A stretch of 64,000 nt of DNA from Sediminitomix flava (GTDB taxonomy: Bacteria; Bacteroidota; Bacteroidia; Cytophagales; Flammeovirgaceae), in the NCBI RefSeq assembly GCF_003149185.1, contig NZ_QGDO01000001.1, positions 930,001 through 994,000 on the forward strand, written 5' to 3'. Shown piece after piece: positions 24,160-61,172 of this stretch (its first letter is position 1; the number at the start of each line of letters is the position of its first letter). Under the pieces are notes generated by a model. It made no database searches. It was not told the origin of the DNA and was given only the letters and a program-made list of their open reading frames with translations. A program made the translations under genes and the position numbers.

Positions 24160-24161
24160 AG

Positions 24162-24220: not shown

Positions 24221-24228
24221 ATTGATAG

Positions 24229-39326: not shown

Positions 39327-41039
39327 CTATGCGTTTACTGCATTTCTTTGTCCATCCCCTGCCTTGAAATTTGAAAGGCTAACAGGTAATGTTCCATTCG
39401 CTTCTTCTTTACCCAATAACACATCTACTACAGCATCTTGGAAATAGATACTATCTTGATAAGTGATAAAAATAGTAGAAGCATTTTTATGACCTTCTAC
39501 CTCATCTAAAGCGTATGCATTTCCAAACAATAAAATTGTAGTTGAAATATTTCCTAAATTCTTCATCAATTCTAGTCTGACGAACTCAGGAATATCAAAG
39601 TTATTGAAAGGCTTAATGTTCACGCCATGAAGACTTACAATCACCTCATCAGAAGATTTTGCTTCGCCGATCAATTCTTGCAGTGCTTCAATTCCTTGAC
39701 TTTCTCTCCAAGTCAATACAGTCACATTATCTAGCTCATTTTGTAATCTTTCAGCTAGAATGTTCGCCTCCTTCTTTTCAACTTCTTTCAAGTGATGCGC
39801 TACTTGATCTCTTGAAGTCAGCGTTTTATTCTCTGCAAAAATTTGAATTACAGCAATCTTCTTTTCTCTATTTTGAAGCGGAATAAAATCACCTTCTCCC
39901 AATTGAGTTACTGCTGCTTTTGCAAGTTGCTTGTTAAGCGCAACTGAAGCTTCATCATTCAAGTCTTTTTCAAGCTGTGCTAAAGAAATAGATTTGAACT
40001 GATCTAAAGCTGCCCATTTTTTCATCGCTAGAACTTTCTGAACAATCGAATTCAATTGTTCTTCCGTTAGGATATTTTGAGCTAAAGCTTCTTTCAGTTT
40101 CTCCACTCCTTTTGGTACACTCTTACTATTTGTAATGATGTGATTTCCGGCCAAAATAGCTCTCAAATCTGCATCACCATCCTCATAGTGATTTGTAATA
40201 CCGTGCATATCCATGGCATCTGTGATCGCTAGACCTTTAAAGTCTAGTTCTCCAAATAATAGATCACTCAAAATCTTTTCAGAAAGAGTCACAGGCATAT
40301 GCTCTCTATTATCCAAAGATGGAATCTCCAAATGAGCTGTCATTACAGAACTTAGTCCTTCATCGATCAAACGCTTGAAAGGATAAAGTTCTAAATTATC
40401 CAAACGTTCTTTAGAGTGCATCAACTTAGGTAGCTCCAAATGTGAATCTGTAGCAGTGTCTCCATGCCCTGGGAAGTGCTTCGCATTATCTAGAATATTT
40501 GAAGCTTGTAAGCCTTTCATATAGGCTACTCCCTTTTCTGCAACCTTTTCCTTATCCTCTCCAAAAGAACGATAATTGATTACAGGGTTTTTAGGGTTAT
40601 TATTGACATCTACTACAGGAGCTAAAGCTGAACTGACGCCGATGCGTTGACAATGTTCACCGATTTTCTTTGCCATTTTAAAAATCAGCTCATTGTCTTG
40701 GATCGCTCCTAAAGCCATCTGATATGGAAACTGGGTTGTCCCGTCAAGACGCATAGCCAATCCCCATTCAGCATCTATATTGATAAATAAAGGTACTTTG
40801 CTTTTTGCTTGGTATTTGTTTGTTAGTTCAATCTGTTTTTCAGGAGTTCCTTGAAAAAAGGTCAAACCTCCCAAATGATATTTTTCGATCAGTTCTTCAA
40901 TAAACTGCTCATGTTCTTCGTCACGATTAGAGAAGGCTGCAACTTGAAAAAGTTGACCAATTTTCTCCTCTACACTCATTGATGACAGGGTTTCTAATAC
41001 CCACTCATCATTTAAATAGGTTAAAAATGGAGGTTGCAT
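39327..41039 (-). CDS. nagZ: GH3 beta-N-acetylglucosaminidase (NagZ-like)
   Basis: A 570-residue glycoside hydrolase family 3 enzyme. The NagZ-type motif KHFPGHGDTATDSH (about 187-200) supplies the Asp-His acid/base pair, and the nucleophile Asp is in 'LAITDAMDMHG' (about 267-277). The TIM barrel fills about 1-350 and a C-terminal alpha/beta sandwich the rest, the two-domain form. There is no signal peptide, so it acts in the cytoplasm on GlcNAc-anhMurNAc or GlcNAc-MurNAc brought in by the permease encoded just upstream. The gap to that gene is 2 bp. It is the last gene of the operon. Confidence 0.9.
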   Translation of the reverse strand: MQPPFLTYLNDEWVLETLSSMSVEEKIGQLFQVAAFSNRDEEHEQFIEELIEKYHLGGLTFFQGTPEKQIELTNKYQAKSKVPLFINIDAEWGLAMRLDGTTQFPYQMALGAIQDNELIFKMAKKIGEHCQRIGVSSALAPVVDVNNNPKNPVINYRSFGEDKEKVAEKGVAYMKGLQASNILDNAKHFPGHGDTATDSHLELPKLMHSKERLDNLELYPFKRLIDEGLSSVMTAHLEIPSLDNREHMPVTLSEKILSDLLFGELDFKGLAITDAMDMHGITNHYEDGDADLRAILAGNHIITNSKSVPKGVEKLKEALAQNILTEEQLNSIVQKVLAMKKWAALDQFKSISLAQLEKDLNDEASVALNKQLAKAAVTQLGEGDFIPLQNREKKIAVIQIFAENKTLTSRDQVAHHLKEVEKKEANILAERLQNELDNVTVLTWRESQGIEALQELIGEAKSSDEVIVSLHGVNIKPFNNFDIPEFVRLELMKNLGNISTTILLFGNAYALDEVEGHKNASTIFITYQDSIYFQDAVVDVLLGKEEANGTLPVSLSNFKAGDGQRNAVNA

Positions 41040-41041
41040 AA

Positions 41042-42328
41042 CTATTCTTTTTCAGGTAGTTTTTCATGTATTTTCTTAACAATCCAGATACTTGGGATTC
41101 CTGACAACAATACCCATACGAAGAAATTGTCATAACCCAATACCTCTTGCAGTTTACCCGAAAACAAGCCAGGAATCATCATACTCAAAGCCATAAATGC
41201 AGTTGCAATTGCAAAGTGCGCCGTTTTGTATTTTCCTTCTGACATATGAATCATATACATCATATAGGCTGTAAAACCAAAACCATAACCGAAGGTCTCA
41301 AAGATAATTGAACCACCAATTAAGTATAAGTTTTCTGGTAAAACCCAAGAAAGGTAAATGTAAGTCATGTGTGGTAGGTTAATAGCTACCAACATAATCC
41401 AGATCATTTTCTTTAATCCATATTTTGAAACGGCCATACCTCCTAGAATACCTCCTAGAATCAGACCTATTGGACCAACCGTACCGTAAACCGTACCTAC
41501 TTCTGTAGTGCTCAAACCTAAACCTCCTACTTCAGCCGTATCCAACAAGAATGGTTGAGCCATTTTTACCAATTGAGCTTCCCCAAAACGATAAAGTAAA
41601 AGGAATGCAATTGATAACCACACACCTTCTTTTTCAAAAAACGTTTTGAAAGTTGCGAAGAATTCATTGATGATATTACCTGCAGACTTTTCTTCTTCTG
41701 AAGTTGTTTCAACCTTAGGAATAAACACACTATGGTATAACCAAGATACTGCCATCAATATAGCCATAACGCCTAAAGTCACTGACCAAGCCATTGGCAC
41801 ACTATTGAATTCTTTTTCAAGGTATCCTCCCAAAACAACTACACCACCTTGGGTAAATACCATTGAAATACGGTAGAATAAGCTTCGGATACCGATAAAA
41901 TAAGCTTGATCGTCTTTACTGGCACCGATCATATAGAAACCATCTGCCGCTATATCATGAGTTGCAGAACTAAATGCGATTAACCAGAAAAACGCTAAAG
42001 ATGCCTGGAACCAAAATTCCGTATTTAAGGTAAATGCAATCCCTGCCAAAGCTACTCCAATGACAAATTGCATGATAAGAATCCACCAACGTTTGGTTTT
42101 CAATATGTCAATGAATGGAGACCAAATTGGTTTTATAACCCAAGGCAAATAAAGCCATGAAGTATAAAAAGCTAATTCAGTGTTTGACAATCCCATATTC
42201 TTGTACAGAATTGTCGTCACATACATGACTAAACCGTATGGAAGACCTTCCATAAAATAAAGCGAAGGAATCCACGTCCAAGGGGATTTTTGCTTTATTT
42301 GTTCTCTTTCTAACGTTGTGTCCCTCAT
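41042..42328 (-). CDS. AmpG/MurT-like MFS muropeptide or amino-sugar permease
   Basis: A 428-residue transporter from the ATG giving MRDTTLEREQIKQK; the longer frame starts at TTG inside the upstream gene. About 12 membrane segments are seen, starting at 'WIPSLYFMEGLPYGLVMYVT', and 'WLYLPWVIKPIWSPFID' is the AmpG-like loop 2 region, with the D-G-F-Y of 'HDIAADGFYMI' at about residue 130. AmpG family members import GlcNAc-anhMurNAc; in Tannerella forsythia the related MurT imports MurNAc. Its place between murQ, the kinase and nagZ makes a peptidoglycan sugar the likely cargo. The gap to the GNAT gene is 1 bp. Confidence 0.9.
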   Translation of the reverse strand: MRDTTLEREQIKQKSPWTWIPSLYFMEGLPYGLVMYVTTILYKNMGLSNTELAFYTSWLYLPWVIKPIWSPFIDILKTKRWWILIMQFVIGVALAGIAFTLNTEFWFQASLAFFWLIAFSSATHDIAADGFYMIGASKDDQAYFIGIRSLFYRISMVFTQGGVVVLGGYLEKEFNSVPMAWSVTLGVMAILMAVSWLYHSVFIPKVETTSEEEKSAGNIINEFFATFKTFFEKEGVWLSIAFLLLYRFGEAQLVKMAQPFLLDTAEVGGLGLSTTEVGTVYGTVGPIGLILGGILGGMAVSKYGLKKMIWIMLVAINLPHMTYIYLSWVLPENLYLIGGSIIFETFGYGFGFTAYMMYMIHMSEGKYKTAHFAIATAFMALSMMIPGLFSGKLQEVLGYDNFFVWVLLSGIPSIWIVKKIHEKLPEKE

Positions 42329-42329
42329 C

Positions 42330-42806
42330 TTACCTAAGCATATTTTTGTAAATACCTGGAGTTGAACCTTCAATTAGGCTAGCCCCAACAACTTTCTCAT
42401 AAAATTCTGCAGGACCAATGCCTCCTATGAAGCCATAGGCATAGCCCATATGTTTTAGCTCGTGAAGTGTTTCGATCAATAATAATTTACCGATTCCCTT
42501 TCCTCTCATTGTTTCATCTACTCCTGTAGGTCCAAAAAATGCCTTGCAAGTAGCTTCTACACAAGCAAATCCTTTCATTTGCCCATCTTGAATGGCTATA
42601 AAACATGAAATCGGATTATTTGAAAAAGCAGCTTCTACCTCACTTGCCCAATGCGGATTAAAATGTGTTTTCACCCAATCTACAACAATATGTCTTTCGG
42701 GTGCAATAGCCCTACGAATTTCGATGCCTTCTTCGCTGAGTAAATCATAGTTTTTTTGAAACTCAGCTTTCTGAGGAAGGTCATACAACTTTACGAGCAT
42801 GTCCAT
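42330..42806 (-). CDS. GNAT-family N-acetyltransferase in the salvage operon
   Basis: A 158-residue GNAT protein. The acetyl-CoA loop is in 'VDETMRGKGIGKLLLIETLH' (about 95-114; R-G-K-G-I-G), and 'GPAEFYEKVVGA' (about 131-142) is the usual end motif. It is packed between murQ (11 bp) and the permease (1 bp), so it is co-expressed with peptidoglycan-sugar enzymes. A natural guess is re-acetylation of deacetylated GlcN or MurN, but neither the substrate nor any precedent can be shown from sequence. Confidence 0.85.
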   Translation of the reverse strand: MDMLVKLYDLPQKAEFQKNYDLLSEEGIEIRRAIAPERHIVVDWVKTHFNPHWASEVEAAFSNNPISCFIAIQDGQMKGFACVEATCKAFFGPTGVDETMRGKGIGKLLLIETLHELKHMGYAYGFIGGIGPAEFYEKVVGASLIEGSTPGIYKNMLR

Positions 42807-42817
42807 AATCCTTGCAG

Positions 42818-43624
42818 TTATTTCTGTTTATTAAAAAAATCAACGGCCTTACGTACAGAACCTTCTTGTAATAAAAGTTTTTGAGCTTCCTCATAAGAAA
42901 TAGAAGAAACCTCATCCATGATCATACGAGTACCTCTATCCACCAACTTTTCATTACTCAATTGCATATCGACCATCTTATTGCCTTTCACATGCCCCAA
43001 ACGGATCATTGCCGCAGTAGAGATCATGTTCAATACCAATTTCTGAGCCGTACCCGATTTCATACGTGTTGAACCTGTCACAAACTCGGGTCCTACTTCT
43101 GCTACAATCGGAATTTCAACTTCAGGAATCAGTTTAGCATTTGAATTACACACAACACAAGCTGTCAGCAATCCTTCTTCTTTTGCCTTTCTCACGCCAC
43201 CAATCACGTATGGTGTTCTTCCCGATGCCGCAATACCTACCAAAATATCATTTTCATTGATATCATAAGCTTGAAGGTCTACCCACGCTTGGTCAAAATC
43301 ATCTTCAGCATTTTCTACTGCATTTCTGATAGCATGATCTCCACCAGCAATGATACCGATTACCTTATCACGTACGCCGTATGTAGGAGGGATTTCTGAC
43401 GCATCAAGAATACCAAGTCTACCACTTGTTCCTGCTCCGATATAGAAAATTCTTCCGCCTTTTTTCATACGCTCTACCGCACCGTCTACCAACAAAGTGA
43501 TTTCATTAAGTGCTTTAGCTACTGCCAAATGTACTTTGGCGTCCTCCTGATTCATATTGAATAGGATTTCTGAAGTAGCCATTTTATCAAGATCGTTATA
43601 TAATGAAGGTGATTCTGTTTGCAT
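42818..43624 (-). CDS. murQ: N-acetylmuramic acid 6-phosphate etherase
   Basis: A 268-residue SIS-domain lyase that splits MurNAc-6-P into GlcNAc-6-P and D-lactate. The signature 'YIGAGTSGRLGILDASEIPP' (about 61-80) is nearly invariant in MurQ, 'AGGDHAIRNAVENAEDD' (about 93-109) follows with the catalytic Glu, and 'GIAASGRTPYVIGG' (about 130-143) and 'TGSTRMKSGTAQKLVLNM' (about 188-205) complete it. Length is somewhat below the usual 300. It is the second gene of the operon, 24 bp after the kinase. Confidence 0.97.
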   Translation of the reverse strand: MQTESPSLYNDLDKMATSEILFNMNQEDAKVHLAVAKALNEITLLVDGAVERMKKGGRIFYIGAGTSGRLGILDASEIPPTYGVRDKVIGIIAGGDHAIRNAVENAEDDFDQAWVDLQAYDINENDILVGIAASGRTPYVIGGVRKAKEEGLLTACVVCNSNAKLIPEVEIPIVAEVGPEFVTGSTRMKSGTAQKLVLNMISTAAMIRLGHVKGNKMVDMQLSNEKLVDRGTRMIMDEVSSISYEEAQKLLLQEGSVRKAVDFFNKQK

Positions 43625-43648
43625 CTTATTTTTGTTTTATGTTTTTAA

Positions 43649-44509
43649 TTACAAAACTGTCGACTTATCGACTGTGTAATCGATTAGACCATCAATTGGC
43701 GATTGCATCACTTTATCTATTTCCACGCCTTTTTGTACTGCAATAGTTTCAATTTGCTCCGAAAAGTGAAATGCGATTGAACCTGCTAGTCTAATTTTTA
43801 GATTTTCAACTTCTGAATATTTTAAAATATAATAGTCGAAAAATTTATTGAAATTATCCTCTAAAATAGCTTGGCATTGCGGATGAAAACTATTTTCCTT
43901 TAGAAATGGAGTAAAAGATGCCAAATATTTATTTGGTTTACTCTGATGGTATATCCTGTCCAACACATCTAACTTATTGATCTCATATTTATCATAAAAA
44001 GCTTCAATAAGCTTAGGATCCATTTTATGCGTAAGCATTTCACTCAATAAATCTCGTCCTAATACAGCCCCACTTCCCCAATCGGAAAGAATGTAACCAA
44101 GAGAAGCTACATTTTTAACTATCCCTTGATTTTGGTACACACAAGAATTTGCTCCTGTACCTAAAATTGCAGCTATTCCATCTTCATTTTGCCAAAGAGC
44201 GATAGCTGCGCCTAACATATCACTCCCGACATGGGTTTCAATACTTGAGCCATAACAGGCTTCGAAAGCTTCGGTCAATATTTTTGTAGAACTAGGATTT
44301 CCACAGCCAGCAGCATAAAACAACACTTTAGTAAGTGCGATACCTACTGTCTCAGGAACTACCGCTTGTTTTAACTCTTCGATTAGTTCTGCGAAAGTAT
44401 AAAAATACGGATTAATGCCTTTAGTTCTAAACCGTTTTATTGGGCCTCGCTCAGGATCGACAACTACCCATTCTGTCTTTGTAGATCCGCCATCTCCAAC
44501 AAGCACCAT
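43649..44509 (-). CDS. BadF/BadG-type N-acetylhexosamine kinase (GlcNAc/MurNAc kinase)
   Basis: A 286-residue ASKHA-fold sugar kinase. The phosphate-1 motif is 'LVGDGGSTKTEWVVVD' (residues 3-18), the sugar/phosphate-2 region 'AAILGTGANSCVYQN' (about 110-124), 'GYILSDWGSGAVLGRDLL' (about 132-149) the conserved E/D-G-S loop, and 'IRLAGSIAFHF' (about 238-248) the adenosine motif. Eukaryotic NAGK and T. forsythia MurK belong here. It heads the salvage operon and would phosphorylate MurNAc and/or GlcNAc at O-6, giving the substrate of MurQ or NagA. Divergent from the giant kinase gene. Confidence 0.88.
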   Translation of the reverse strand: MVLVGDGGSTKTEWVVVDPERGPIKRFRTKGINPYFYTFAELIEELKQAVVPETVGIALTKVLFYAAGCGNPSSTKILTEAFEACYGSSIETHVGSDMLGAAIALWQNEDGIAAILGTGANSCVYQNQGIVKNVASLGYILSDWGSGAVLGRDLLSEMLTHKMDPKLIEAFYDKYEINKLDVLDRIYHQSKPNKYLASFTPFLKENSFHPQCQAILEDNFNKFFDYYILKYSEVENLKIRLAGSIAFHFSEQIETIAVQKGVEIDKVMQSPIDGLIDYTVDKSTVL

Positions 44510-44599
44510 ATTATTATATATTTAAATTTCTTATTTAGATATCGAAAAAATTACGTTTACCTTGCTTATACTATTTCATAGGTATTTTAGTATTTACTA

Positions 44600-44627
44600 C
44601 AAAGCTAGTGAACATCTGCAAGCCAAA
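44600..44627 (-). promoter_or_regulatory. Possible promoter of the salvage operon
   Basis: On the minus strand a perfect -7 box TAGCTTTG lies about 90 bases before the kinase ATG. The only TTTG upstream is 16 bases away instead of 19-21, so the -33 element is weak and an activator may be needed. Confidence 0.4.
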
Positions 44628-44707
44628 ATTCACTGAAAATGGCTATTTAGAGAAACACACTTTTTAGGGCAGTATGTTAACTTTTTTCAGTTGTTTAAAA
44701 AGTAAAT

Positions 44708-47700
44708 ATGGATCAGACGACTTCAACACACAGGTCGATAAGCTCTGAATTAGAAACCACCATCAACACACTAATTGAGGCGACCTATATACAACATAGA
44801 GTATCTCTTATACAAGGAATTGAGGGCACTGGAAAACAGCGAATTGTAGATCAGCTTGCACATTCATTTCAAGGGAAAATTCACTTTATAAAAGTCAGTT
44901 GTACTCAACTTTCATCGAATGTGCCATACTATGCCTATCGTATGGTAGTACAAGCGCTCATTCAAGAATTACTACTGAGTGAGCGATTAGAGCTGCTTCA
45001 AAAAGTTTATGATAAATTCATCAAATCACACTCTTTAGAAATATTCACAAATCTAGAATCCTTTATTCCCGAATTGAAAGGTGTGATTTCAAAAAAAACG
45101 GAGGATTCAAAAACACAGCAACAGCCAACAAGAGAGAATAGCCTTGAATACTTTCGTAAATTCATGGAACTATGCTTTCAAGAAGCTGAAAAACCTGTTG
45201 TTTTGGTTTTTGAAAAAATTGAATGGTTGGATAGCTCAAGTTCTTTTTTCCTAAAAAGTCTATTCAAAGAGTGGAATAGTGGAAAAGCGCTTTTCATATT
45301 CCTGAGTTCACTAAACGAAAATGAAGGGCATTCTAATAACTTCTTGAATATTGTTAAAGCGCATAGTTCAGCTACATTTCTCATAAGCATTATCTCAAAA
45401 ACTGATTTTGAAAAAGCTTTGGAAGTTAAACTAGCTCCAAACATTGTCAGTAAAAGTGTCCGAAATGAATTGTACCGATTAACTGGAGGAAATATACAAT
45501 ACCTTTCATCTATTCTGAGTTGGCTAGAAAGTAAAAGGCTCATTTGGCTATTAGATGGACTTTGGTGTACGGATATATTTGCCTTAAGAAAACACCTAAA
45601 ACCACAATCTGCTGAGAGTCTATTAAAGGATCAGTTAAAAAGACTTTCAGCTTTAGAATTATCCATTCTCAACCATATTGTAATTGCCCAAGAATGTGAT
45701 ATAGAGTTGCTTTGCCATTTATTAGCATTATCTAATAGTCAACTTCAGCAAGAACTGCTGTCCCTTGTAGAAAAGCAATTTATCAATCTCAATGATCAAG
45801 GTGAATTTGAACTAGAAGAGTTATATCGAACTAAACTTCTCTATGAGCTTATTCCCGCTCCAGAAAGAAATAAGACTCATTTTAAGATAGGGTTTAGTGT
45901 TTTACAAGAAGCAAAAGAACGTCATCGAATCTTTTCAGCAGTTCATCACCTCAATAGAGGAAGCCAATACGCACTAAAAAACAACAAACATGAGTTACTC
46001 GCAAAGGCTAATTTAAAGGCTGGAGAACAAGCACTAAAATCGGGCATTTTTCAAGAAGGAAGACATTATTTTCGAATGGCAGAAATGCATCTCAATTTTG
46101 ATGGATCACTTCAAAAATACAAACTCTATTATCAGATCATCACCCAAAGAGCGCAGCTTGAATATCTTCTTAAAAATTATGATTATGCGAACCTCAGACT
46201 TGATGATCTTTTAGTACCACATTACCCACTTGAAGACCGAATTAATGTTTATGTCAAAAAGATAAAACTCAATAACCACCTAGGCAGATATACCACTGCT
46301 AGAGATGTTCTATTAGATGGATTAAGTGCATTGGGTTTTAAAAACTTCTTTGAGACTGCCCCACAAAAAATTAAAAGACTTCAAACAGATATTGATTCTA
46401 AAGTCAAACTTTTCTTAGCTTCTTTAGACCATGATGACTTAGATGAAATGCCATCTCATTTCGTCCATAAAAATACGCTTTTATACAATGCAGGGATAGC
46501 GATTCATCATACATCTGAAGAAGAAATGCTATTATCGAATCTATCTATTATTACAGATGGATTGAAGTATAAAAAAACAGGTGAACTAGCGGTTGCTTGT
46601 TGTGTGTATGGACGTTTCCTATTTACACAGCAACAAGATATTGAACGCGCAATTAGCTTTGGTCAGTTAGGACTTAAAATAGCTGAATCTCTTGAAAATA
46701 AACTGTATCTAGCTAGAGCTTACGGAATTTTCACTTTCTACACCTTACCATGGAAAAGAACGCTACATGAAAACCTTAAATACCTTGACCAAGGAGCTTC
46801 TATCGCTAAAAAAGAAAAAGATTTTTACCTACAATCCATTCTTCAAACACATGCCTATACACTCCAAGTTCTTTTAGGAAATCATTTAGAAGATGTAACA
46901 GATTTAGGTGAACAGCTAAGTAATCAAAATAGTCCGATAGCCTACAGTGTTTCGGCTCTAAATCATCTGATCAAATTTTTGAGTGGAAAATTAAATAGCT
47001 TACCAAAGGCTTATCAGTCAATTCACTCAACGACTGTTTACAGTAAAAATGAGACACTTTTCTTTCAAAGCTTTTCTAAAGGAGTCGGCTTATTTACAAT
47101 TGGTTTGTATGCTTTTGCGGCAATAGAATTTGAAAAAGCTTATGCACACTCAGTATTGCAAAGAGGTTCTATTCTTTACAACATTAATCTAATGTTTCTA
47201 GGTATTTCTCTAGCAGAACATCAGAACTCAAATCATAAAGAAGAATATCTGTTACAATTGATTTCAGAATTAGAGCGGTATGAAAAAGAAACTTCTACAA
47301 GCTCTCAAATCTTTACTTTTTCTACATTACTGAAAGCTGTTTTCTATTCTTCAAAAAATGAAAATGCAACAGCAGAGTTTTTCTTTGATCGTTTTGTCAA
47401 TAATCAAAATACACCCCAAGGATTTAAAGCACTAGGTTATGAGCTTAAATTCAATCATCAGCTTAAAAATCAAAAAGAGGATAAGTCCACCCTAGAAAAA
47501 GCAATAGAAAACTACAAATTATGGGGAGCGGATTATAAGGCTAATACCCTAAACCAAGCATATAGAAAGTTTAGAAAAGACAGCGAATATAAACAACTAG
47601 ACACCTTCAAAGTATATCTCGAATTTCAGAATTTACTTGAAGAACTTTCTAGTATAGAAGAGGTCAGTAGCTTTGCTTTAAAGTATCTGTTTTTACTGAG

Positions 47701-48781: not shown

Positions 48782-49437
48782 TACAAACACAAACGATCAA
48801 AGTAGCCATAGTAGACGACTACAGCATCATTGCTGATGGTATACGCCTACTCATAGAACCTGAGGAGGATTTAGAAATATATGGTGTATTTAATAATGGA
48901 AAGGCTTTCGTGAATGCCTTAGAAAAAGAGGAAGAACACCCAAACGTTGTTTTGATGGATATCAACATGCCTATTATGGACGGTATTGAAACCACAAAAC
49001 ATCTGATGAAAAACTTTCCCAACATCAATGTTTTAGCGCTTTCTATGCACAACGAAAGAGAATTTATATCGGGAATTTTGAAGGCGGGTGCATTGGGTTA
49101 CGTTCTGAAAAACACAAGTAAGTTTGAACTTTTACATGCTATTCAAAATGTAGCCAATGGCGAAACCTATATTTCAGGTGAAGCTTCAAAAGTGCTTCTT
49201 AGTGGATTTGTGAAAAAGAAACAGACCTTATCAGAAAAAGTATCTAAAAGAGAAATGGAAGTCTTGGTCAAAATTTCGGAAGGACTAACCACACAAGTCA
49301 TTTCAGAAATGTTATCGATTTCAAAAAATACAGTGGAAACACATCGAAAAAACTTGCTATACAAACTGAAAGCAAAAAATACGGCTGAGCTTGTCAATAT
49401 TGCCTACAAAAAGCAATTGTTAGGCATGGATGAATAA
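48778..49437 (+). CDS. LuxR/NarL-type response regulator, coupled to giant kinase
   Basis: A 219-residue regulator. The receiver has 'IVDDYSI', the phosphorylation site Asp61 in 'VVLMDINMPIMDG', 'LALSMHNE' and the Lys in 'GYVLKNT'. The C-terminal HTH is 'SKREMEVLVKISEGLTTQVI' then 'KNTVETHRKNLLYKLKAKN'. Its ATG overlaps the kinase stop by four bases, which points to translational coupling and a one-to-one pair. It ends before a bidirectional terminator. Likely targets are the divergent murK-nagZ operon and the facing SusC/SusD operon, which is inference from position. Confidence 0.93.
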   Translation: MIQTQTIKVAIVDDYSIIADGIRLLIEPEEDLEIYGVFNNGKAFVNALEKEEEHPNVVLMDINMPIMDGIETTKHLMKNFPNINVLALSMHNEREFISGILKAGALGYVLKNTSKFELLHAIQNVANGETYISGEASKVLLSGFVKKKQTLSEKVSKREMEVLVKISEGLTTQVISEMLSISKNTVETHRKNLLYKLKAKNTAELVNIAYKKQLLGMDE

Positions 49438-49444
49438 ATAAGCA

Positions 49445-49475: not shown

Positions 49476-49506
49476 AATTTTATGAACGCTTAAAAGTGTA
49501 TATGCA

Positions 49507-51039: not shown

Positions 51040-51161
51040 ACGTTTCGCAATTAATCAACCCAAATATCAAAATCGTAACGATTGTATTTATTTAGTGTAA
51101 AACTAGAATAATTATAGCTTTAAAAATTCACCAATTATGGGGATTTCTATTTTTCACTAGC

Positions 51162-51193
51162 AAAAAGAGGTTCCCTTTTTTTGAGAACCTCTT
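51162..51193 (-). terminator. Terminator between the two GHL10 genes
   Basis: On the minus strand AAGAGGTTC pairs with GAACCTCTT around an A-rich loop, followed by T5. It lies 27 bases after the larger enzyme's stop and marks the probable end of the SusC/SusD operon. Confidence 0.8.
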
Positions 51194-51219
51194 CAGTAGA
51201 TTTGGTTAGCCAGAAACGA

Positions 51220-53958: not shown

Positions 53959-54021
53959 ATCAATATTCTAGCTAAAAAATTGATAACATATTAAACAATA
54001 ATATTCTAAAAACCACTAAAA

Positions 54022-54062
54022 CCTGACTTTCCTTCATATAAAGTCATATGCAGAAAGTCAGG
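54022..54062 (-). terminator. Hairpin between PKD lipoprotein and GHL10 gene
   Basis: A perfect 10-bp stem (CCTGACTTTC / GAAAGTCAGG) with a 21-nt loop, followed on the minus strand by TTTTAGTGGTTTTT. It lies 34 bases after the lipoprotein stop. It could lower expression of the downstream enzyme relative to SusC/SusD. Confidence 0.65.
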
Positions 54063-54096
54063 CTTAGAATAAATTGGGCTTCTCTAAAACAAACGA

Positions 54097-55701
54097 TTAA
54101 CGTCTTACTGGATCGATTGCCATTCCCATTGGCGCATAACCAGAAAGATACATTTCTACTTCACTTCCGTCTAGGTTTGCTCTTTTGACACCAGAGGTTT
54201 CTGGGGCTTGATCTGCTGATCTGTAACTCCAGTAAATTTTATCATTCATCTCGTCTATAGCGATACCTGTGATCCCCACCAAACAAGAGTAAGACAAACC
54301 TTCTAGGTTACCAAATTGATCAAATTCTGAAGCTTCGTAGCTTTCAATTTCTTGAACATTTGTACCATTCAAATCACACATATACAAGCCTGTTTTTAGC
54401 ATTGCAGATGTATTTGGATCAGTACTTGGTACATTCACTGCAAAATAGATTTTATCCTTATACACCTTGAATGTTTTCACAGAAACACCTGCTAGGAGAC
54501 GATCGTGAGCAGTTTTACCATCTCTACTGAAAGTATAGATACTTTGTCCATTATTCGCTTTCGACCAATAGAACTTATCTCCTACCAACTGACCATCACC
54601 ATTCATATTACCCCATCCAATTCCACCTGGCTCACCAGGTTGAGCTGTTGAATTATAAAAAGCGGTTAGTGTATTATTTTTCACAAAATGAGCTGGTAAA
54701 TCTGCTTCTGCTAAGTTTTCAGTAAACTTATTAATTGAACGAAAACCTTCTCTACGATCTAGATAATAGACATTGTTACCTTCTACTGTACCTGCATAGG
54801 GAACATTATTTGCAGAAATAGCATCTAAGATGACTTTCATTTCTTTTGACACAACATCAAAAGCGTATAATTGTCCAGCTGTACCCGAGCCTAAGAAGAA
54901 CGAACCTTCACCAGCATCAAAAACATAAACTTTTCCGTCAGCAACCTCCAAGTCCATAGCATGTGCCGCAGAAAACTCTGTAGCCATCGCCTCTGTTTCT
55001 GTTCTGACTGTTAGCGGCTTTCTGAAAATTTTCCCTGTTGCTAAATCATGGAAATATAAACCTTGTGCTAACTCTGGTTTCACCTCCACTTCAAAAGTAG
55101 AATTCAACACCTCTTCTCCGTCATTGACAGTAAGAAGAATATGATACATACCTGCTTCTTCCCAAGCCATTTTCACAGATGATTCCGTAAATGTTTCTCC
55201 ATTCCCGAAATCCCATGAGTAGCTCACATCTTTGCCTTCATAAGTAAAAACCTTAGCACTGAAAGTCACAGAATCTTGCATTTCGATTGCCTCTTTATCC
55301 ATCAGAAGCTTTGGCATTGGTTTTACCACATTGATATCTAAAGATGTGCTTTCTTTGACACCATTTGCATCCGTGACATCCAAGTTAATGGTATAACTAC
55401 CTGGTAAATCGTAACGGATGGTATCTGGAGTTAAACCTGAATAACTATCCGCTTTATTCAAATCATTTTTTAAATAACCTTCTGGAAATGACCATTCGTG
55501 AGACACTGCATTTTTTGAAGCATTTATTACGACAACATTAGCAGGTGCTTCAAGTGGATTTTCAACAGTAACTTCATTGGCTAATTTCAAACCTGCCGTA
55601 ATTGGTAGACTCTCTGAGTCTTCTGTCTGACAAGCACCCATGCCTATAGCTAACGCAAAAATGCCTGCAAACTTCAATCTATTTAATACGCTCTTTTTCA
55701 T
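54097..55701 (-). CDS. PKD-domain lipoprotein with propeller, sus-operon member
   Basis: A 534-residue lipoprotein (AIGMGAC, lipid Cys24, followed by Q-T-E-D). Two PKD-like domains fill about 40-125 and 130-205 ('VSHEWSFPEG', 'VSYSWDFGNGETF'). Residues about 210-534 are a beta-propeller of the YWTD/LDL-receptor-B kind, with 'YFHDLATGKIFRKPL', 'KFYWSKANNGQSIYTFSRDG' and 'DKIYWSYRSADQ' followed by 'VKRANLDGSEVEMY'. It is the fourth gene after SusC and the 59-bp spacing supports co-transcription. A surface glycan-binding or substrate-holding role is likely; catalysis cannot be excluded. Confidence 0.8.
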   Translation of the reverse strand: MKKSVLNRLKFAGIFALAIGMGACQTEDSESLPITAGLKLANEVTVENPLEAPANVVVINASKNAVSHEWSFPEGYLKNDLNKADSYSGLTPDTIRYDLPGSYTINLDVTDANGVKESTSLDINVVKPMPKLLMDKEAIEMQDSVTFSAKVFTYEGKDVSYSWDFGNGETFTESSVKMAWEEAGMYHILLTVNDGEEVLNSTFEVEVKPELAQGLYFHDLATGKIFRKPLTVRTETEAMATEFSAAHAMDLEVADGKVYVFDAGEGSFFLGSGTAGQLYAFDVVSKEMKVILDAISANNVPYAGTVEGNNVYYLDRREGFRSINKFTENLAEADLPAHFVKNNTLTAFYNSTAQPGEPGGIGWGNMNGDGQLVGDKFYWSKANNGQSIYTFSRDGKTAHDRLLAGVSVKTFKVYKDKIYFAVNVPSTDPNTSAMLKTGLYMCDLNGTNVQEIESYEASEFDQFGNLEGLSYSCLVGITGIAIDEMNDKIYWSYRSADQAPETSGVKRANLDGSEVEMYLSGYAPMGMAIDPVRR

Positions 55702-55760
55702 TTTTGAGATAGATTTAAAACCAAAAAATATCTATTCAAGTATTCTAGTTTAGTACCTAC

Positions 55761-56591
55761 TTATTGGATCATTGCACTGATCTCTCTGTTGTAGATTCTT
55801 GAAATCCCTTTCGTATTTGTTGCTTTGGCTTCAAAGAACATCTCATTCTCTGAAGTGAATACGAACTTAGAACCATCAGCTGATTTAGCAATTACTTCAA
55901 GTACTGAGGCATCTGATTGACTTACTAGCTCTGTAGCACCAACTTCTGTTAGTACCCATTCTGTGATAGGAGGCTCATCTCCTTCTGATTCTTCTACGAC
56001 AACTTCTTCAAAGAATGTCATGAAGGTTTCCAAATCATAAATGGCTAAATCATCTACAAATACTGATTGTAAAAACTCATGAGAGAGTTCAGGTACAATC
56101 TCGTTTGCAATTTCATTGATGAGAACAGATTCAATAGAGCTTAAGTAGCTTAAATCCTCTTCTTTTACAGGCGCATATTCTGGAAGAATAAGATGTGCAT
56201 GGTCTGTGATATAAGCACTCTGCGCTGTTTGCCAGTCTTCAATGAAGTTTTCTGATTTAGTGAAAATATTTCCTTTCTCACCTAAGGCTTCATCATCTAC
56301 TTTCTTATTGTAGGCATAAGTCTCTTCCCCTGAAGTAATCGAATATGTCAATGTATAAGATTGAAGTATCCAAGCATTGATTTCTACACTTTCAATGTTA
56401 TCATCTTGTCCCCAATATCTAACTCTCAGATCAAACTCTTTCCCTGCAGCTGAAGCCTTAACCCTATCCATTGTAATTGTTGGAGCATCACCTGTTACAG
56501 TCCCTTGATCGGCTAAAGGATCGTTTTCCTCACAGCCCGTAAAAAATAGGACTGCAAGTACTAAAAGTATGGTATATGTCAATCTTGTCAT
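55761..56591 (-). CDS. SusE-position lipoprotein of unknown family
   Basis: A 276-residue lipoprotein from the ATG giving MTRLTYTILLVLAVLFFTGC (lipid Cys20, followed by EEND); the longer frame starts at GTG inside the SusD gene. After a short linker an Ig-like start ('APTITMDRVKASAAGKEFDL') is seen, then an acidic, mostly helical part and a final beta-rich segment ('KFVFTSENEMFFEAKATNTKG'). It follows SusD by 35 bp, the place where SusE/SusF-type surface glycan-binding proteins are encoded. I do not recognise a known domain, so the glycan-binding role rests on position. Confidence 0.7.
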   Translation of the reverse strand: MTRLTYTILLVLAVLFFTGCEENDPLADQGTVTGDAPTITMDRVKASAAGKEFDLRVRYWGQDDNIESVEINAWILQSYTLTYSITSGEETYAYNKKVDDEALGEKGNIFTKSENFIEDWQTAQSAYITDHAHLILPEYAPVKEEDLSYLSSIESVLINEIANEIVPELSHEFLQSVFVDDLAIYDLETFMTFFEEVVVEESEGDEPPITEWVLTEVGATELVSQSDASVLEVIAKSADGSKFVFTSENEMFFEAKATNTKGISRIYNREISAMIQ

Positions 56592-56626
56592 GATTTCTAT
56601 TTTTAAGGTTAAAAAAAGATGATAGG

Positions 56627-58135
56627 TTATTTTTGCCACCACATTTTTTTAGTAATCCAGTCTTCTGCTTTTGCACCCAATCTCTCGATTTCTGGAAGAT
56701 TGTAGATATACTCCGTTTCTGGATCATAAGGAAGACGGTTGAACCAATCCCCATGCATTTCAGGAAGCACCTGTGAAGGATAAGTCATTCCTCTGAACAC
56801 CGTTGGGTCAAAATTGTATCTACGCATATCCGTCCAAGACTCAGGAGCAAGGTAAAGTGCTACATATTTTTGCTCCATGATATCTGCCAACGTTAGTGCA
56901 TCTACAGATTCAGCTACTAAATCGGAATCCATTAAGTCTTCAACTTCAGAAGTTTCAACACCCAACCTTGCAAGATTCAAGCGAATACCTTCTTGGTAAG
57001 CGGCAAATGCTGTTGATTTATCTCCTGTTTGGAATGCTGCTTCTGCTTTGATGAACTGTAATTCTTCATCTAGGAAAAGAGGCTGAGAGGATAAATCTAA
57101 AGTCCAGTGACCGCCATAAAGTGTTGGGTAATCATTGGCACTCGCTGTTCCTAGCCCTTCCGATACAATAATTCCATTAAAGTTTTCTACTCCACCTTGA
57201 CCTGCATTAGCTGCTGCAGTCATCAGTTTTGCTAAACGAGGATCCTCAAAAGATGCGGACTTTACTTTTGACATAAAGAATGTTGTTGGCAAACTCGTAT
57301 CTAAATCATTTGTAACGTGATCCCACTGCGGTCTAGACTTAGAAGGTCCCATTGGGCTTGTAGACCAAGTTCCAGAACCGTCATATCTATAAAGTGCTCC
57401 TTCAAAACCAACTTGTTCTGCTTCTGAAACAGCTTCTAAAACTTTCGCGTATCTATCTGGCTGAATTGCGGTAAGGTGCAAATGCATTTTAGCTCTTAAG
57501 GCTTTGTTTAGCCCTTCCCACTTTCTGATATCTCCTCCATAAATAAGGTCTTCCCCATTACCCATTGGTAAATCCTTCGCCGTCCCTGCCTTTTCGTATG
57601 CTACATCAGCTTCTGCCAATAAGTTTTCAATGTATTTATACACCTCTTCTTGAGCATCGTAATGCGGATCAATTACTCCTTGAAAAGCTTCATAAACGGG
57701 CATATCACCAAAGTGGTCTGTGGCAAGCATCGTACTGTATGCCATAATCGTTTTACCGACGGCTACATAATTGTAGTTTTCATCTTTTTCTGCACGAAGA
57801 ATCAGGTTATTCACATTTCCTCCTACATCAAAATAATGACGTCTCCATTCTCCAATACGATAAGGGTTTCTGTAATCCCACTTATCATGAAATGAACTCG
57901 TTCCCCACAATGTCGTTCTGTACTGAGTTGTATATGAATCTCGAAGTGTATGCTGATAGAAAGAAATTGAAAGCATTCCTTCAACTCCTGGTAATAAGAA
58001 GTTTGGAGTAGTGGTTACAGGATCATCTTCTGGTTGGTTTACATCCAAAAAGCTATCCATGTCACAGCTTGTTGTTCCTACTAAAAGAACCAACAAGAAT
58101 GTCCATAATTTATATGTTAAATTAAATCTTTTCAT
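56627..58135 (-). CDS. susD: SusD/RagB-like outer-membrane glycan-binding lipoprotein
   Basis: A 502-residue SusD-like protein. I use the ATG giving MKRFNLTYKLWTFLLVLLVG with lipid Cys24 (TTSC-DMDSFLDVNQP); another ATG lies 18 bases upstream within SusC. 'SFLDVNQPEDDP' is the common SusD N-terminus, 'VAVGKTIMAYSTMLATDHFGDMPVYEA' pattern (about 120-145) carries the family W/H-x-F-GD-x-P motif, and 'FIKAEAAFQTGDKSTAFAAYQEGI' pattern (about 365-390) is the TPR-like helix pair. It caps the SusC channel and picks the ligand. This member is of the SusD/RagB-2 type; the substrate is probably a peptidoglycan fragment in this context. Confidence 0.92.
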   Translation of the reverse strand: MKRFNLTYKLWTFLLVLLVGTTSCDMDSFLDVNQPEDDPVTTTPNFLLPGVEGMLSISFYQHTLRDSYTTQYRTTLWGTSSFHDKWDYRNPYRIGEWRRHYFDVGGNVNNLILRAEKDENYNYVAVGKTIMAYSTMLATDHFGDMPVYEAFQGVIDPHYDAQEEVYKYIENLLAEADVAYEKAGTAKDLPMGNGEDLIYGGDIRKWEGLNKALRAKMHLHLTAIQPDRYAKVLEAVSEAEQVGFEGALYRYDGSGTWSTSPMGPSKSRPQWDHVTNDLDTSLPTTFFMSKVKSASFEDPRLAKLMTAAANAGQGGVENFNGIIVSEGLGTASANDYPTLYGGHWTLDLSSQPLFLDEELQFIKAEAAFQTGDKSTAFAAYQEGIRLNLARLGVETSEVEDLMDSDLVAESVDALTLADIMEQKYVALYLAPESWTDMRRYNFDPTVFRGMTYPSQVLPEMHGDWFNRLPYDPETEYIYNLPEIERLGAKAEDWITKKMWWQK

Positions 58136-58139
58136 GTTC

Positions 58140-61100
58140 TTAGAATTTAGCATTTACACCAAATGTGAAACCTTTTGTTGGAGGTACCCCGAAGTAGTCA
58201 ATCCCCATTGTACCCGCACCAGCCGTAGATGAACCTGTAGAGTTCACCTCAGGATCTCCACCTGAATAGTTGGTGAAAAGAAGTAGGTTACGACCTGTTG
58301 CTGAGAACTCCACATCTTTGATTTTCCATTTGTCTAACAACGAATTTGGAAGTCTGTAGCTAAACGTCACATAACGAAGTCTCAACCAATTCACATCTTC
58401 TACAAAGTTGGTTCCTACTTGTTGGTAGTTATCTCTGTAGTAGTCGTAGTCCATCACAACTTCCTTCTCATTCTTTTTATAAGTTGTATTTCCTGCTTCA
58501 TCGGTTACTGGTACTACTCCGTCAAAGACAATTGTTGCATCTCTATAATTCTCTAGCATCTTATCTTGACCGTAAGTAATCATGTGATAACTATTGGCAT
58601 TCAAGACATCGCCTCCAAGACTGCAATCAAATAAGAATGAAAGACCGAAGTTTTTATAAGTAAAGCTGTTTGTCCAACCTGCAATCAAGTCAGGCATTCT
58701 ATCTCCTATATTTTTTCTTTGTGTATCAACAACAGGATAACCATTCTCACCAATAATCATTTGTCCATCAGGTGTTCTTGCATAATCAGTGCCTGTTACA
58801 CCAAATACTGTTTCTCCCACAAATGAGCTACCGTATGCGGTATTCCCCATCACTTGAGCCTGTGCAATCACATATTCTGACACGAAACTTGGTAACTCTT
58901 CAAGAGTAGATTTTGATTGAGATAGGTTCAAAGTTGAATTCCATGTGAAATCCGCTTTCTTGATAATATCTGCATCAATCATTAATTCCCAACCTGAGTT
59001 ATCAATTGTACCTGAGTTAAATGTCTGAATGATATAACCAGTTACTGGAGAAATACGGGCCGTGATAATCTGATCATGAGACACTTGGTTATAAACAGCT
59101 CCTTCTACTCTCAAACGACCATCCAAGAAGGCCATATCAATACCTATTTCTCTAGACTCTGTTCTTTCAGGTTTCAAGTTCGGGTTACCCGCTGTATGGT
59201 AGTTGACAAATCCGCCATTCGCACCCAAGTAAGGAGTCAATGTTGGATACAACTTCTGAATAGGAGCATCCTTACCTACTTGTGCATAAGAGACATGCAA
59301 CTTACCGTATGATAGAATATTATTTTCTGGTAGAAGTTCTCCGAACACAATACCTCCAGAAACTGCTGGATAGAAGAATGACCTGTTGTTTACTGGCATG
59401 GTAGAAGACCAGTCATTACGACCTGTAACGTTTACATAAGCCACACCTTTATAGTCCAACTTCACATCTCCGAATACACCAACTCTATTTCTTTTTCGTG
59501 TTGATTGTTTCGAAAATACCTCTTCCATATTATTGATAGAGATCAAATCTTTATTCAGTAGTCCTCTACCTTCTTGAATGGCTCCATAGCTTTCATACAT
59601 TTCAACGTTATTACCAACCAAAGCACTCAATGTAAAACTTTGATTAAAAGTCTTGTTGAAAGATGCAGTTATCGTTGAAGTTGTAATAGAACTCATTGAC
59701 ATCACTCTGTCCATTCCCCCTTGGAAATAACCGACAGTAGAATAGGCCATCTTTCTCTCATATTTGTTTGTGTACTCGTCACGTCCGAGTCGGTATGAGA
59801 TATTGAGTGATTCAAAAGGTTGCCAGTTCAGATTCGTATTTACGATCAAACGATTGTTTTGCTCCTCTACAGGGTTATGATCTAAAACCCAAAGCTTGTT
59901 ATCAAATTGAGGACCTGCTTCTGTATCAGTCACTAGACTAGGAAGTGCCCAAACCTTTTCTCCATTTGCTTCCTTGTAATGAGTAATGTCTTTTGTAGAC
60001 GGCCAAAGCATTACATTTCTTGCAAAACCACCTGAATAATTTAAAGCACCACGTATGTTTGTAGAATTGATGTAGTTGGCTGATGCTCCTACTCTTAGAT
60101 TATCTCTAAGTTTGAAAGTACCTTTTAATAGTATACTTGTTTTATCATAACCTGTCATAGGTACTACCCCATCTTGTGTAAGATTATTGATAGATGCATA
60201 CGCCGTTGTATTTTCAGTTCCTCCAGAAATTGTTGCACTGTTGGTAAACGCTGCCGCTGTTTGGTAAAAATTCTCAGGATTATTATATGTCTTTTCATCG
60301 GGTCTAAGAAGCGGTCCCCACATCATCATGGTTTCATCGTTTGCAAGACCAAGACTACCCTGTGAATATTTTTTTTGTTGCTCTGGTAACCTTCCTACTT
60401 TATCAATATCTACCGAGCTAGAAAATGTCACTTGTGTTTCACCTGCTTTACCACTTTTAGTTGTGATAATAATTGCTCCGTTGGCACCATCCATACCGTA
60501 AAGCGCTGCAGCTGCAGGACCTTTCAAAACAGTCATGCTTTCAATATCATTTGGGTTGATATCGGCGGCCCTGTTTACCCCACCATTTTGAGATGAGTTA
60601 TCGATCGGAATACCATCAATGACAAAAAGTGGTTGGTTATCTCCTGTAAGTGAATTGGCTCCACGAATCATAATCTGAGAAGATGCACCTGGCATACCTC
60701 CACCTGAAGTAATCTGAACCCCTGCTACTTTACCTTGTAGCGCATTAACCATGTTAGACTGCTTAGATTGTACAAGTTCTGCAGCATTCACTTCTTGTAC
60801 AGCATAGTTCAAAGCTTTCTTTTCTTGCTTTACCCCAAAAGCAGTTACTACAACTTCCTGAAGTTCTTCAGCATCAATTTCCATGAATACTTCCACCTCA
60901 GACTCAGTACCGATCTCTACTTCTTGCGGCTTATAGCCCACATAAGTAATCAATAGGGCTGTTTTTCCTTCTGGTACGAGCAATGTGAATGCTCCGTCAA
61001 AATTGGTGATTGTACCATTTGAAGTACCCTTTACAACAATGTTTGCACCAATGACTGCAGTTTTGTCTGATGCATCTCGGACGACACCGCTAATTGTTCT

Positions 61101-61172
61101 TTCCTGAGCAAATGTCAAGGTAGAGCAGAACAATGCGATCATCCCAAAGAGTGAAACCTTTAGTAACCTCAT
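58140..61172 (-). CDS. susC: SusC/RagA-family TonB-dependent transporter
   Basis: A 1010-residue outer-membrane transporter from the ATG giving MRLLKVSLFG; the longer frame starts at TTG. A signal peptide (TFAQ, about 22) leads to a carboxypeptidase-like regulatory domain ('ISGVVRDASDKTAVIGANIVVKG' pattern, about 26-48), the TonB-box-like 'EEVVVTAFG', the plug with the SusC signature 'LFVIDGIPIDN' (about 190-200), and the barrel ending 'VNAKF' in phenylalanine. No N-terminal STN or anti-sigma-type domain is present, so it is not controlled by a FecR-like pathway. It is first in the operon and overlaps no neighbour; SusD starts 4 bp later. Confidence 0.95.
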   Translation of the reverse strand: MRLLKVSLFGMIALFCSTLTFAQERTISGVVRDASDKTAVIGANIVVKGTSNGTITNFDGAFTLLVPEGKTALLITYVGYKPQEVEIGTESEVEVFMEIDAEELQEVVVTAFGVKQEKKALNYAVQEVNAAELVQSKQSNMVNALQGKVAGVQITSGGGMPGASSQIMIRGANSLTGDNQPLFVIDGIPIDNSSQNGGVNRAADINPNDIESMTVLKGPAAAALYGMDGANGAIIITTKSGKAGETQVTFSSSVDIDKVGRLPEQQKKYSQGSLGLANDETMMMWGPLLRPDEKTYNNPENFYQTAAAFTNSATISGGTENTTAYASINNLTQDGVVPMTGYDKTSILLKGTFKLRDNLRVGASANYINSTNIRGALNYSGGFARNVMLWPSTKDITHYKEANGEKVWALPSLVTDTEAGPQFDNKLWVLDHNPVEEQNNRLIVNTNLNWQPFESLNISYRLGRDEYTNKYERKMAYSTVGYFQGGMDRVMSMSSITTSTITASFNKTFNQSFTLSALVGNNVEMYESYGAIQEGRGLLNKDLISINNMEEVFSKQSTRKRNRVGVFGDVKLDYKGVAYVNVTGRNDWSSTMPVNNRSFFYPAVSGGIVFGELLPENNILSYGKLHVSYAQVGKDAPIQKLYPTLTPYLGANGGFVNYHTAGNPNLKPERTESREIGIDMAFLDGRLRVEGAVYNQVSHDQIITARISPVTGYIIQTFNSGTIDNSGWELMIDADIIKKADFTWNSTLNLSQSKSTLEELPSFVSEYVIAQAQVMGNTAYGSSFVGETVFGVTGTDYARTPDGQMIIGENGYPVVDTQRKNIGDRMPDLIAGWTNSFTYKNFGLSFLFDCSLGGDVLNANSYHMITYGQDKMLENYRDATIVFDGVVPVTDEAGNTTYKKNEKEVVMDYDYYRDNYQQVGTNFVEDVNWLRLRYVTFSYRLPNSLLDKWKIKDVEFSATGRNLLLFTNYSGGDPEVNSTGSSTAGAGTMGIDYFGVPPTKGFTFGVNAKF

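Follow-up and report, generated by a model that had tools for sequence, protein, structure and literature searches.

Gene content of the locus

We analysed a 64-kb stretch of the Sediminitomix flava genome (contig NZ_QGDO01000001.1, positions 930,001 to 994,000 of the forward strand; hereafter the window, numbered from its first base), in which genes for the salvage of cell-wall sugars, a two-component system and a SusC/SusD operon with two GHL10 glycosidases lie side by side. A sequence-only reading had proposed this arrangement of three units, and the open reading frame list and the family searches of the 64-kb window agreed with it, all 13 genes being found where it had put them. The kinase, MurQ, GNAT, AmpG and NagZ genes (39327-44509, minus strand) formed a tight run, spaced by 24, 11, -44 and 2 bases. 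The genes of a histidine kinase (HK) and a response regulator (RR), which overlapped by 4 bases, lay on the plus strand (44708-49437). The second operon was again on the minus strand (49507-61178) in the order SusC, SusD, small lipoprotein, PKD lipoprotein, Por-tailed GHL10 and short GHL10; its SusC and SusD genes were adjacent, with a 14-base overlap. The nagA and anmK genes, claimed for the same window, were both there, but 10 to 13 kb beyond the range that had been given for the locus. The genes were assigned as follows.

39327-41039, minus: NagZ-like GH3 beta-N-acetylglucosaminidase (PF00933, 257 bits)
41042-42373, minus: AmpG-like muropeptide permease of the major facilitator superfamily (TIGR00901, 191.9 bits, cut-off 350)
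42330-42806, minus: GNAT acetyltransferase (PF00583)
42818-43624, minus: MurQ, N-acetylmuramic acid (MurNAc) 6-phosphate etherase (NF003915, 359.9 bits)
43649-44509, minus: MurK-like BadF-type amino-sugar kinase (phmmer E 8e-55 to 8oqw)
44708-48781, plus: AAA_16-HisKA_3-HATPase HK (Pfam)
48778-49437, plus: LuxR-type RR (PF00072, PF00196)
49507-51039, minus: short GHL10 glycosidase, Cwp19-like (PF02638, 297 bits)
51220-53958, minus: GHL10 glycosidase with fn3 domains and a type IX secretion (Por) tail (PF02638, 235.7 bits; PF18962, 48.9 bits)
54097-55701, minus: lipoprotein with a PKD domain and a DUF5050 match (Pfam)
55761-56642, minus: small lipoprotein, acidic after the lipobox cysteine, without a Pfam match
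56627-58153, minus: SusD-like lipoprotein (PF12771, 138.9 bits)
58140-61178, minus, ATG at 61172: SusC TonB-dependent transporter (TIGR04056, 673.2 bits, cut-off 368.25)
25773-26936, plus, outside the locus: NagA, N-acetylglucosamine (GlcNAc) 6-phosphate deacetylase (TIGR00221, 356 bits, cut-off 225.65)
28673-29761, minus, outside the locus: AnmK, anhydro-MurNAc kinase (NF007144, 456.9 bits, cut-off 436)

Salvage proteins

We consider the MurQ assignment of 42818-43624 secure on its family scores, the NF003915 cut-off being 168; TIGR00274 gave 297.3 bits, just under its 302. The sugar kinase scored 31.2 bits with the BadF-type Pfam model, just under the 31.5 of Pfam. We take its closest structure, 8oqw, to be MurK of Tannerella forsythia, because residues 94-95, 119 and 133-135 match the numbering in the available part of the MurK paper (PMC10465942). 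In MurK, room for the lactyl group is made by S133, P134 and L135, and its authors caution there that sequence does not suffice to identify MurNAc binding (PMC10465942). In the alignment of the window kinase with 8oqw, these three positions were occupied by A, S and L, T94 was replaced by S and the catalytic D95 was retained, so that no bulky charged or polar residue stood at positions 133-135 and 94. The predicted pocket thus fits MurNAc, as in MurK.

The best solved relative of the NagZ-like GH3 protein was NagZ (YbbD) of Bacillus subtilis (3bmx, E 3e-67); the alignment covered the KHFPGHGDTxxDSH stretch, where the window protein carries KHFPGHGDTATDSH. Its PRK05337 score of 130.7 was under the cut-off of 207. 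No signal peptide was seen by eye in the N-terminus, and the protein is probably cytoplasmic. The permease had been described as AmpG/MurT-like. The AmpG half of that description is the likelier one, as the best NCBIfam model and all four structure matches were AmpG (9c3f, E 8e-22), albeit with a TIGR00901 score below the cut-off; the MurT half did not stand, AmpG and MurT being separate genes in Tannerella according to the accessible text of PMC5388701. The AmpG-like permease also adjoined GHL10 or NagZ in other genera.

GNAT copies with 54-69% identity stood beside AmpG, NamZ or GHL10 in seven other genomes (L039, L055, L094, L095, L128, L129 and L130), which makes GNAT a steady partner of these genes in eight genomes of five genera, the window's included. 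An assignment as a GlmA-type glucosaminide acetyltransferase was rejected: the sole match covered 29 residues (E 0.006) of an entry named 'Predicted acetyltransferase', here connected with GlmA, and the open-licence papers examined gave no support.

GHL10 enzymes

The short GHL10 protein matched Cwp19 (5oq2, E 7e-113), the only solved GHL10 relative found. We compared 13 residues of the Cwp19 pocket, 12 of them listed in the available part of PMC5765458 together with Asp195. All 13 were kept in the short GHL10 and 12 in the Por-tailed GHL10, in which S368 is replaced by R; the same replacement occurred in the Por-type copies of G003, a relative described below, and of a paralogous locus in the same genome. 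The copy in a third locus, L099, had two further pocket changes, G328S and F367Y. By eye, both window proteins carry signal peptides. The short GHL10 is probably periplasmic, and we infer that the Por-tailed one is surface-located or secreted.

A control search also gave a GHL10 match in Escherichia coli, which we presume to be DigH, as the sequence-only reading had stated. As far as the accessible parts of the respective papers go, Cwp19 is an autolytic lytic transglycosylase that yields anhydro-muropeptides (PMC6016235), DigH is an E. coli hydrolase specific for denuded glycans that serves cell separation (PMC12288456), and DogH, a GHL10 protein of Deinococcus, was reported to be active on starch (PMC9967864). 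Because of DogH, the family name alone decides nothing on the substrate. The sequence-only reading had named DigH as a family member that cuts denuded peptidoglycan. The conserved pocket residues and the gene context favour peptidoglycan, whereas family membership by itself is no proof; and because the sole solved relative found, Cwp19, is reported to be a lytic transglycosylase, a route through anhydro products and AnmK is at least as plausible as one that relies on DigH-type hydrolysis.

There were eight GHL10 matches in the genome. One protein of 1882 residues combined GHL10 with Amidase_3, a Por tail and Ig-like domains, and its neighbour of 1886 residues joined a beta-lactamase-type domain to GHL10, again with a Por tail; the two fusions lie in tandem at L145 2633-13974 (G000:C3). 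Such very large secreted proteins, together with the autolytic nature of Cwp19, could point to attack instead of feeding, with secreted GHL10 enzymes that lyse bacterial rivals or prey and salvage genes that clear away the debris. The enzymes of the window are, however, genetically tied to import and catabolism, and their arrangement can be explained without the lysis of live cells; we therefore consider attack very improbable.

The SusC/SusD cassette

Inspection of the N-termini by eye showed lipobox cysteines in SusD and in both lipoproteins. The PKD lipoprotein is possibly a surface glycan-binding protein. Homologs of the small lipoprotein occupied the same place in five other loci, some scoring only 24-31 bits. 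No usable predicted structure was obtained for either lipoprotein, with predicted local distance difference test (pLDDT) values of 33 for the small and 39 for the PKD lipoprotein (two sequences each).

We searched for relatives of the SusD protein in a phylum sample of 395 genomes (E at most 1e-60) and obtained 31 matches in 27 genomes, the own genome included. The loci of 18 of the 29 matches from other genomes were read. The full cassette of SusC, SusD, small lipoprotein, PKD lipoprotein and Por-tailed GHL10 was present in G193 and G197, and GHL10 lay about 1.4 kb from SusD in G201 and G421. A SusD tree of 29 rows placed the window, G003, L099, G193, G197 and the own paralog in one clade (100/100). 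All six of these loci carried the two lipoproteins and the Por-tailed GHL10, and salvage genes adjoined the cassette in three of them (the window, G003 and L099). At the own paralogous SusC, a Por-tailed Amidase_3 gene stood 2.8 kb ahead, with housekeeping-type genes (ferredoxin-type and CvfB-type) between and an efflux pump behind. As a separate observation, NamZ lay about 1 kb from a double SusC/SusD run in G142 (L109 1706-13902), possibly another MurNAc-related polysaccharide-utilisation locus (PUL).

Recurrence of the gene set in other genomes

We compared the locus across 38 genomes, the own genome and 37 relatives. In G003, which belongs to another genus of the same family, SusD, the PKD protein, MurQ, the short GHL10 and AmpG were found within 25 kb. 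Identities to the window ranged from 29% (HK) to 74% (MurQ), with 61% for SusD, 60-61% for the PKD protein and 59% for the short GHL10. In the 40 kb read, the genes formed a single plus-strand run in the order HK, RR, kinase, GNAT, AmpG, NagZ, SusC, SusD, small lipoprotein, PKD lipoprotein, Por-tailed GHL10, SusC2, SusD2, NamZ, sodium/solute symporter (SSF), MurQ and short GHL10. NamZ, the symporter and the second SusC/SusD pair are extras inside this run. Because the gene order differs, the content shared by G003 and the window is not simply undisturbed synteny.

L099, from a metagenome-assembled genome of the Bacteroidales, was found by SusD alignment, its SusD being 44% identical to that of the window. 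On one strand it carried kinase, MurQ, SusC, SusD, small lipoprotein, PKD lipoprotein, GHL10, a propeller protein and an Amidase_3 protein with a Por tail; the contig stops just ahead of the kinase. The linkage of carbohydrate-active enzymes to SusC/SusD, which in the window comprises the two GHL10 genes in the same run and the GH3 gene across the regulator, thus recurs in G003 and L099. In G307, RR, kinase, GHL10 and HK genes stood in a row; the regulators were of the same types as in the window, and a SusC-SusD-NagZ run, its NagZ truncated where the stretch ends, lay nearby.

Within genus g3, AmpG directly followed the short GHL10 in all nine genomes with an AmpG match, and the kinase homolog lay ahead of GHL10, directly in seven, at about 5 kb in one (L049) and not found in one (L050). 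Joint occurrence of AmpG and GHL10 was not observed in G001, G004, G007 and G011, the AmpG contigs of G007 and G011 being short (6 and 21 kb). A class survey covered 395 genomes, the own included, with scoring limited to the few best candidates of each genome. At E cut-offs of 1e-60 for AmpG and 1e-125 for the short GHL10, 28 genomes had AmpG, 56 had the short GHL10 and 16 had both. The two genes lay within 10 kb of each other in five of these 16 (the own genome, G111, G146, G228 and G165), corresponding to 3 of 11 genera; under an assumed 0.6% per genus, the chance of at least three such genera is 3e-5. G111, G146 and G228, of one genus, had the order Amidase_2, GHL10, GNAT and AmpG, with NagZ next in G111 and G228. 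In G165, a fused gene of NagB type and PIG-L was followed by GHL10, AmpG, NagZ and AnmK, with MurQ about 3 kb from GHL10. This position of AnmK beside GHL10, AmpG and NagZ gives indirect support to 1,6-anhydroMurNAc products of GHL10. The fused protein itself (L131 11765-13708) joins a glucosamine-6-phosphate isomerase domain to a PIG-L de-N-acetylase.

Conservation in relatives had been suggested as a check of the arrangement, and much of the gene set did recur in other genera, in differing orders; the grouping is therefore more than chance, and the recurrence suggests that the parts of the kit work together.

Interpretation of the locus

From gene content and context, we consider it probable that the locus is a SusC/SusD PUL for the glycan strands of peptidoglycan from outside the cell. 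External peptidoglycan had been proposed as the substrate, and the G003 and L099 loci, the GHL10-AmpG pairs, which also occur in further families, and the GHL10-amidase fusion support that proposal.

Several results weigh on the other side. GHL10 enzymes are not all peptidoglycan enzymes, as DogH illustrates. GHL10 was not found nearby in 14 of the 18 loci read for the wider SusD relatives, two weak matches there being Por tails only. Of the 16 class-survey genomes with both AmpG and GHL10, 11 had the two genes unlinked, and two of these 11 are very fragmented. No salvage genes were found in the stretches read at the own paralog, G193 and G197, that is, in three of the six clade loci. In the 40 kb read for each of G193 and G197, neither salvage genes nor amidase homologs were found, with one weak symporter match in G197, and FecR and sigma-type genes stood upstream in both; this gene content counts against peptidoglycan as the substrate for that branch. 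NamZ and a MurT-type transporter were not found inside the window's locus, unlike in G003 and in the T. forsythia cluster, whose ybbC gene we take to be NamZ. In the own genome, NamZ and an SSF symporter lie together at G000:C1, about 1.0427-1.0455 Mb (L079), some 50 kb beyond the window.

Some of these results would also be expected if two unrelated neighbours stood together by chance, namely a wall-sugar recycling operon and a SusC/SusD-GHL10 operon for another glycan (chitin-like, exopolysaccharide or starch-like). The three clade loci whose cassette has no salvage genes nearby, the reported starch activity of one GHL10 and the oppositely oriented two-component system that separates the two window operons fit such an accident. 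Yet in both G003 and L099, two loci of different layout, the cassette directly adjoins salvage genes, and peptidoglycan amidases occur beside the cassette in L099, near the own paralog and, in one case elsewhere in the genome, fused to GHL10. Chance adjacency is thus unlikely.

The locus might instead serve the recycling of the cell's own wall, recovering muropeptides and denuded glycans shed in growth and division, with SusC/SusD recapturing what leaks out. AmpG, NagZ, AnmK and MurQ are classical recycling enzymes, as in E. coli; DigH acts on denuded glycans in cell separation; and G165 has its GHL10-AmpG-NagZ-AnmK group without a SusC/SusD homolog in the 20 kb read. However, a type IX-tailed GHL10 and a TonB-dependent importer exceed the needs of inner-wall recycling, and amidases with tails for the type IX secretion system (T9SS) accompany or lie near related loci. 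We regard recycling as quite unlikely, and a PUL for external peptidoglycan as the better account of these features.

Regulator and candidate operator

The regulator consists of a separate AAA_16 HK and a LuxR-type RR and is not of the types typical for PULs, which are hybrid two-component systems (HTCS), SusR, or extracytoplasmic function (ECF) sigma/anti-sigma pairs. Homologous HK and RR genes stood beside the kinase gene in G003 and around the kinase-GHL10 pair in G307. The highest 19-residue hydropathy of the HK was 1.44 (1.71 for the G003 copy), against 2.41 for the AmpG control. With no stretch reaching the hydrophobicity of a membrane segment, the HK probably receives its signal in the cytosol.

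We compared eight upstream regions by eye and by the longest shared word. Five of these regions (kinase and SusC in the window; kinase, SusC and SusC2 in G003) were then searched for the word TTTTCAGTGA, leaving out the two window GHL10 spacers and the region upstream of the G003 HK. It was present in four of the five, a number reached by 1 of 1000 shuffles in a test that is post hoc because the three other regions were dropped after the word had been seen. The window has two exact copies (44630-44639 and 61294-61303), each ahead of one operon, a number that is unremarkable as such, since 10 of 100 shuffles had it too. The word also stood ahead of the kinase and SusC2 in G003, once between genes beside another G003 GHL10, and in coding DNA of unrelated loci. 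Perfect palindromes of the form ATCCCT-N6-AGGGAT were present in G307 ahead of the kinase-GHL10 pair and of the SusC-SusD-NagZ run, and a close copy stood at the own paralogous SusC. With an 18-base model, two candidate sites were delimited in the window.

44629-44646, minus: candidate operator of the kinase operon, with one good half, TTTTCAGTGA
61293-61310, minus: candidate operator ATCCTTATTTTCAGTGAG, about 115 bases ahead of SusC

With a model built without the window sites, the window SusC site ranked first at 20.2 bits, compared with 18.4 bits for the best of 20 shuffled windows, and the site of the kinase operon ranked third at 13.2 bits, within background. A model from G003 and G307 only was applied to the window, to seven more loci of the own genome and to 400 kb of background in 20 stretches. 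It gave 17.9 bits at the window SusC, 21.6 bits at the paralogous SusC, 17.1 bits ahead of the gene preceding the amidase-GHL10 fusion, and 10.7 bits, within background, at the kinase operon. The same model scored 23.8 bits between a sensor kinase gene and a pseudouridine synthase gene and 19.2 bits ahead of an aspartokinase-homoserine dehydrogenase gene. The candidate operator is thus weak ahead of the kinase operon and has similar or higher scores near unrelated genes, which adds to the points against our interpretation. A scan of 1.68 Mb of loci other than the own genome, L039, L040, L132 and the short loci L010-L038 yielded 11 sites of at least 16 bits, the best with 19.6. Some of the candidate sites lie near stop codons and might be terminator hairpins. 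With these mixed and partly post hoc tests, an operator shared by both operons is suggestive only.

Proposed pathway

From the observed gene identities, recurring co-localisation and pocket residues, we infer a substrate, localisation, order of steps and regulation as follows. The type IX-secreted GHL10 would cut glycan strands at the surface; a Por-tailed amidase, as encoded in a related locus, could remove the peptides beforehand. The surface lipoproteins and SusD would bind the pieces and SusC would import them. The second, periplasmic GHL10 would shorten the pieces, leaving 1,6-anhydroMurNAc ends by analogy with Cwp19, and the AmpG-like permease would carry the disaccharides to the cytoplasm. 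There, NagZ would split GlcNAc off, the MurK-like kinase would phosphorylate MurNAc and AnmK anhydroMurNAc, MurQ would take off the lactyl group, and NagA would give glucosamine 6-phosphate. Both operons are probably controlled by the cytosolic AAA_16 HK and its LuxR-type regulator, in response to a sugar product inside the cell.

A more specific picture, to which we give somewhat less than even credence, is a murein PUL with a dedicated SusC/SusD importer and a front end of surface GHL10 enzymes and T9SS amidases, reshuffled across families of the Bacteroidota. In it, the cytosolic AAA_16 HK would read an internal wall sugar, with binding to an operator of the type ATCCCT-N6-AGKGAT, and the conserved GNAT would add a hitherto undescribed acetylation step before NagZ.

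Plant, algal and host glycans are known PUL substrates; to our knowledge, the import of foreign peptidoglycan across the Gram-negative outer membrane seems much less described. A locus with a predicted cutter, binder, outer-membrane importer, inner-membrane permease and sugar pathway would make outer-membrane import testable gene by gene. It would also suggest, from gene context, a substrate for some members of the widespread GHL10 family, and it flags the conserved GNAT as a salvage partner.

Comparison with published systems

On our reading, the window locus would operate both as a PUL and in the manner of the Tannerella salvage operon, with parts taken from each. The ampG-ybbC-murTKQ operon of T. 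forsythia (PMC5388701) likewise unites AmpG (AmpG-like in the window) and MurQ with a MurK-type kinase, is controlled by a two-component regulator and uses external muropeptides, as we propose for the window locus. Unlike in the window, SusC/SusD and GHL10 are not among the genes named in the available text of that paper. The T. forsythia regulator GppX is described there as a hybrid protein with an AraC-like domain, in contrast to the separate HK and RR of the window. T. forsythia is also reported to have neither MurA nor MurB, whereas murA is present in the window's genome, which therefore does not share the murA lesion of Tannerella.

The nearest published relative may be a PUL of about 27 kb in a Urechidicola mussel symbiont (PMC10199937), compared here by its description in the accessible part of the paper. 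It has two susCD pairs together with murQ, nagB, ampG, ampD, dacA and GH3, GH18, GH171 and GH10 genes, and this GH10 could be a GHL10. According to its authors, most of the genes concern murein metabolism, and they leave the substrate open (gill or environment). It differs from the window in its DeoR regulator, and MurK, GNAT, a T9SS GHL10 and an AAA_16 regulator are not named in the accessible part. Murein genes with susCD have thus been seen before, and the window locus is therefore a variant of a known arrangement and not the first. Besides the Urechidicola PUL, we found no locus in the open-licence papers examined that combines peptidoglycan salvage with SusC/SusD. We also found no description in these papers of the GHL10-AmpG-GNAT link, the front end of T9SS GHL10 and amidase, the AAA_16 regulator or the candidate operator.

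Cwp19 of Clostridioides difficile (PMC6016235, PMC5765458) has pocket residues in common with the window GHL10 enzymes. As described in the available parts, it is a Gram-positive autolysin with cell-wall-binding repeats, whereas the window has one periplasmic-type and one T9SS-type GHL10 in a SusC/SusD locus. DigH of E. coli, compared by its description in the accessible part of PMC12288456, is a cell-separation enzyme outside any uptake locus, unlike the window GHL10 enzymes.

Other features of the window

Slightly past the end of the NagZ gene, two plus-strand genes (32187-34973 and 35277-37979) encode proteins of 928 and 900 residues without any Pfam match. A 2670-residue PKD-repeat protein with a CHU_C type IX signal adjoins a PorP/SprF gene (16147-25302, minus strand). 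Nine tandem tRNA-Val (TAC) genes with spacers of 13-14 bases form a strikingly long run of a single tRNA at 15161-15951 on the minus strand.

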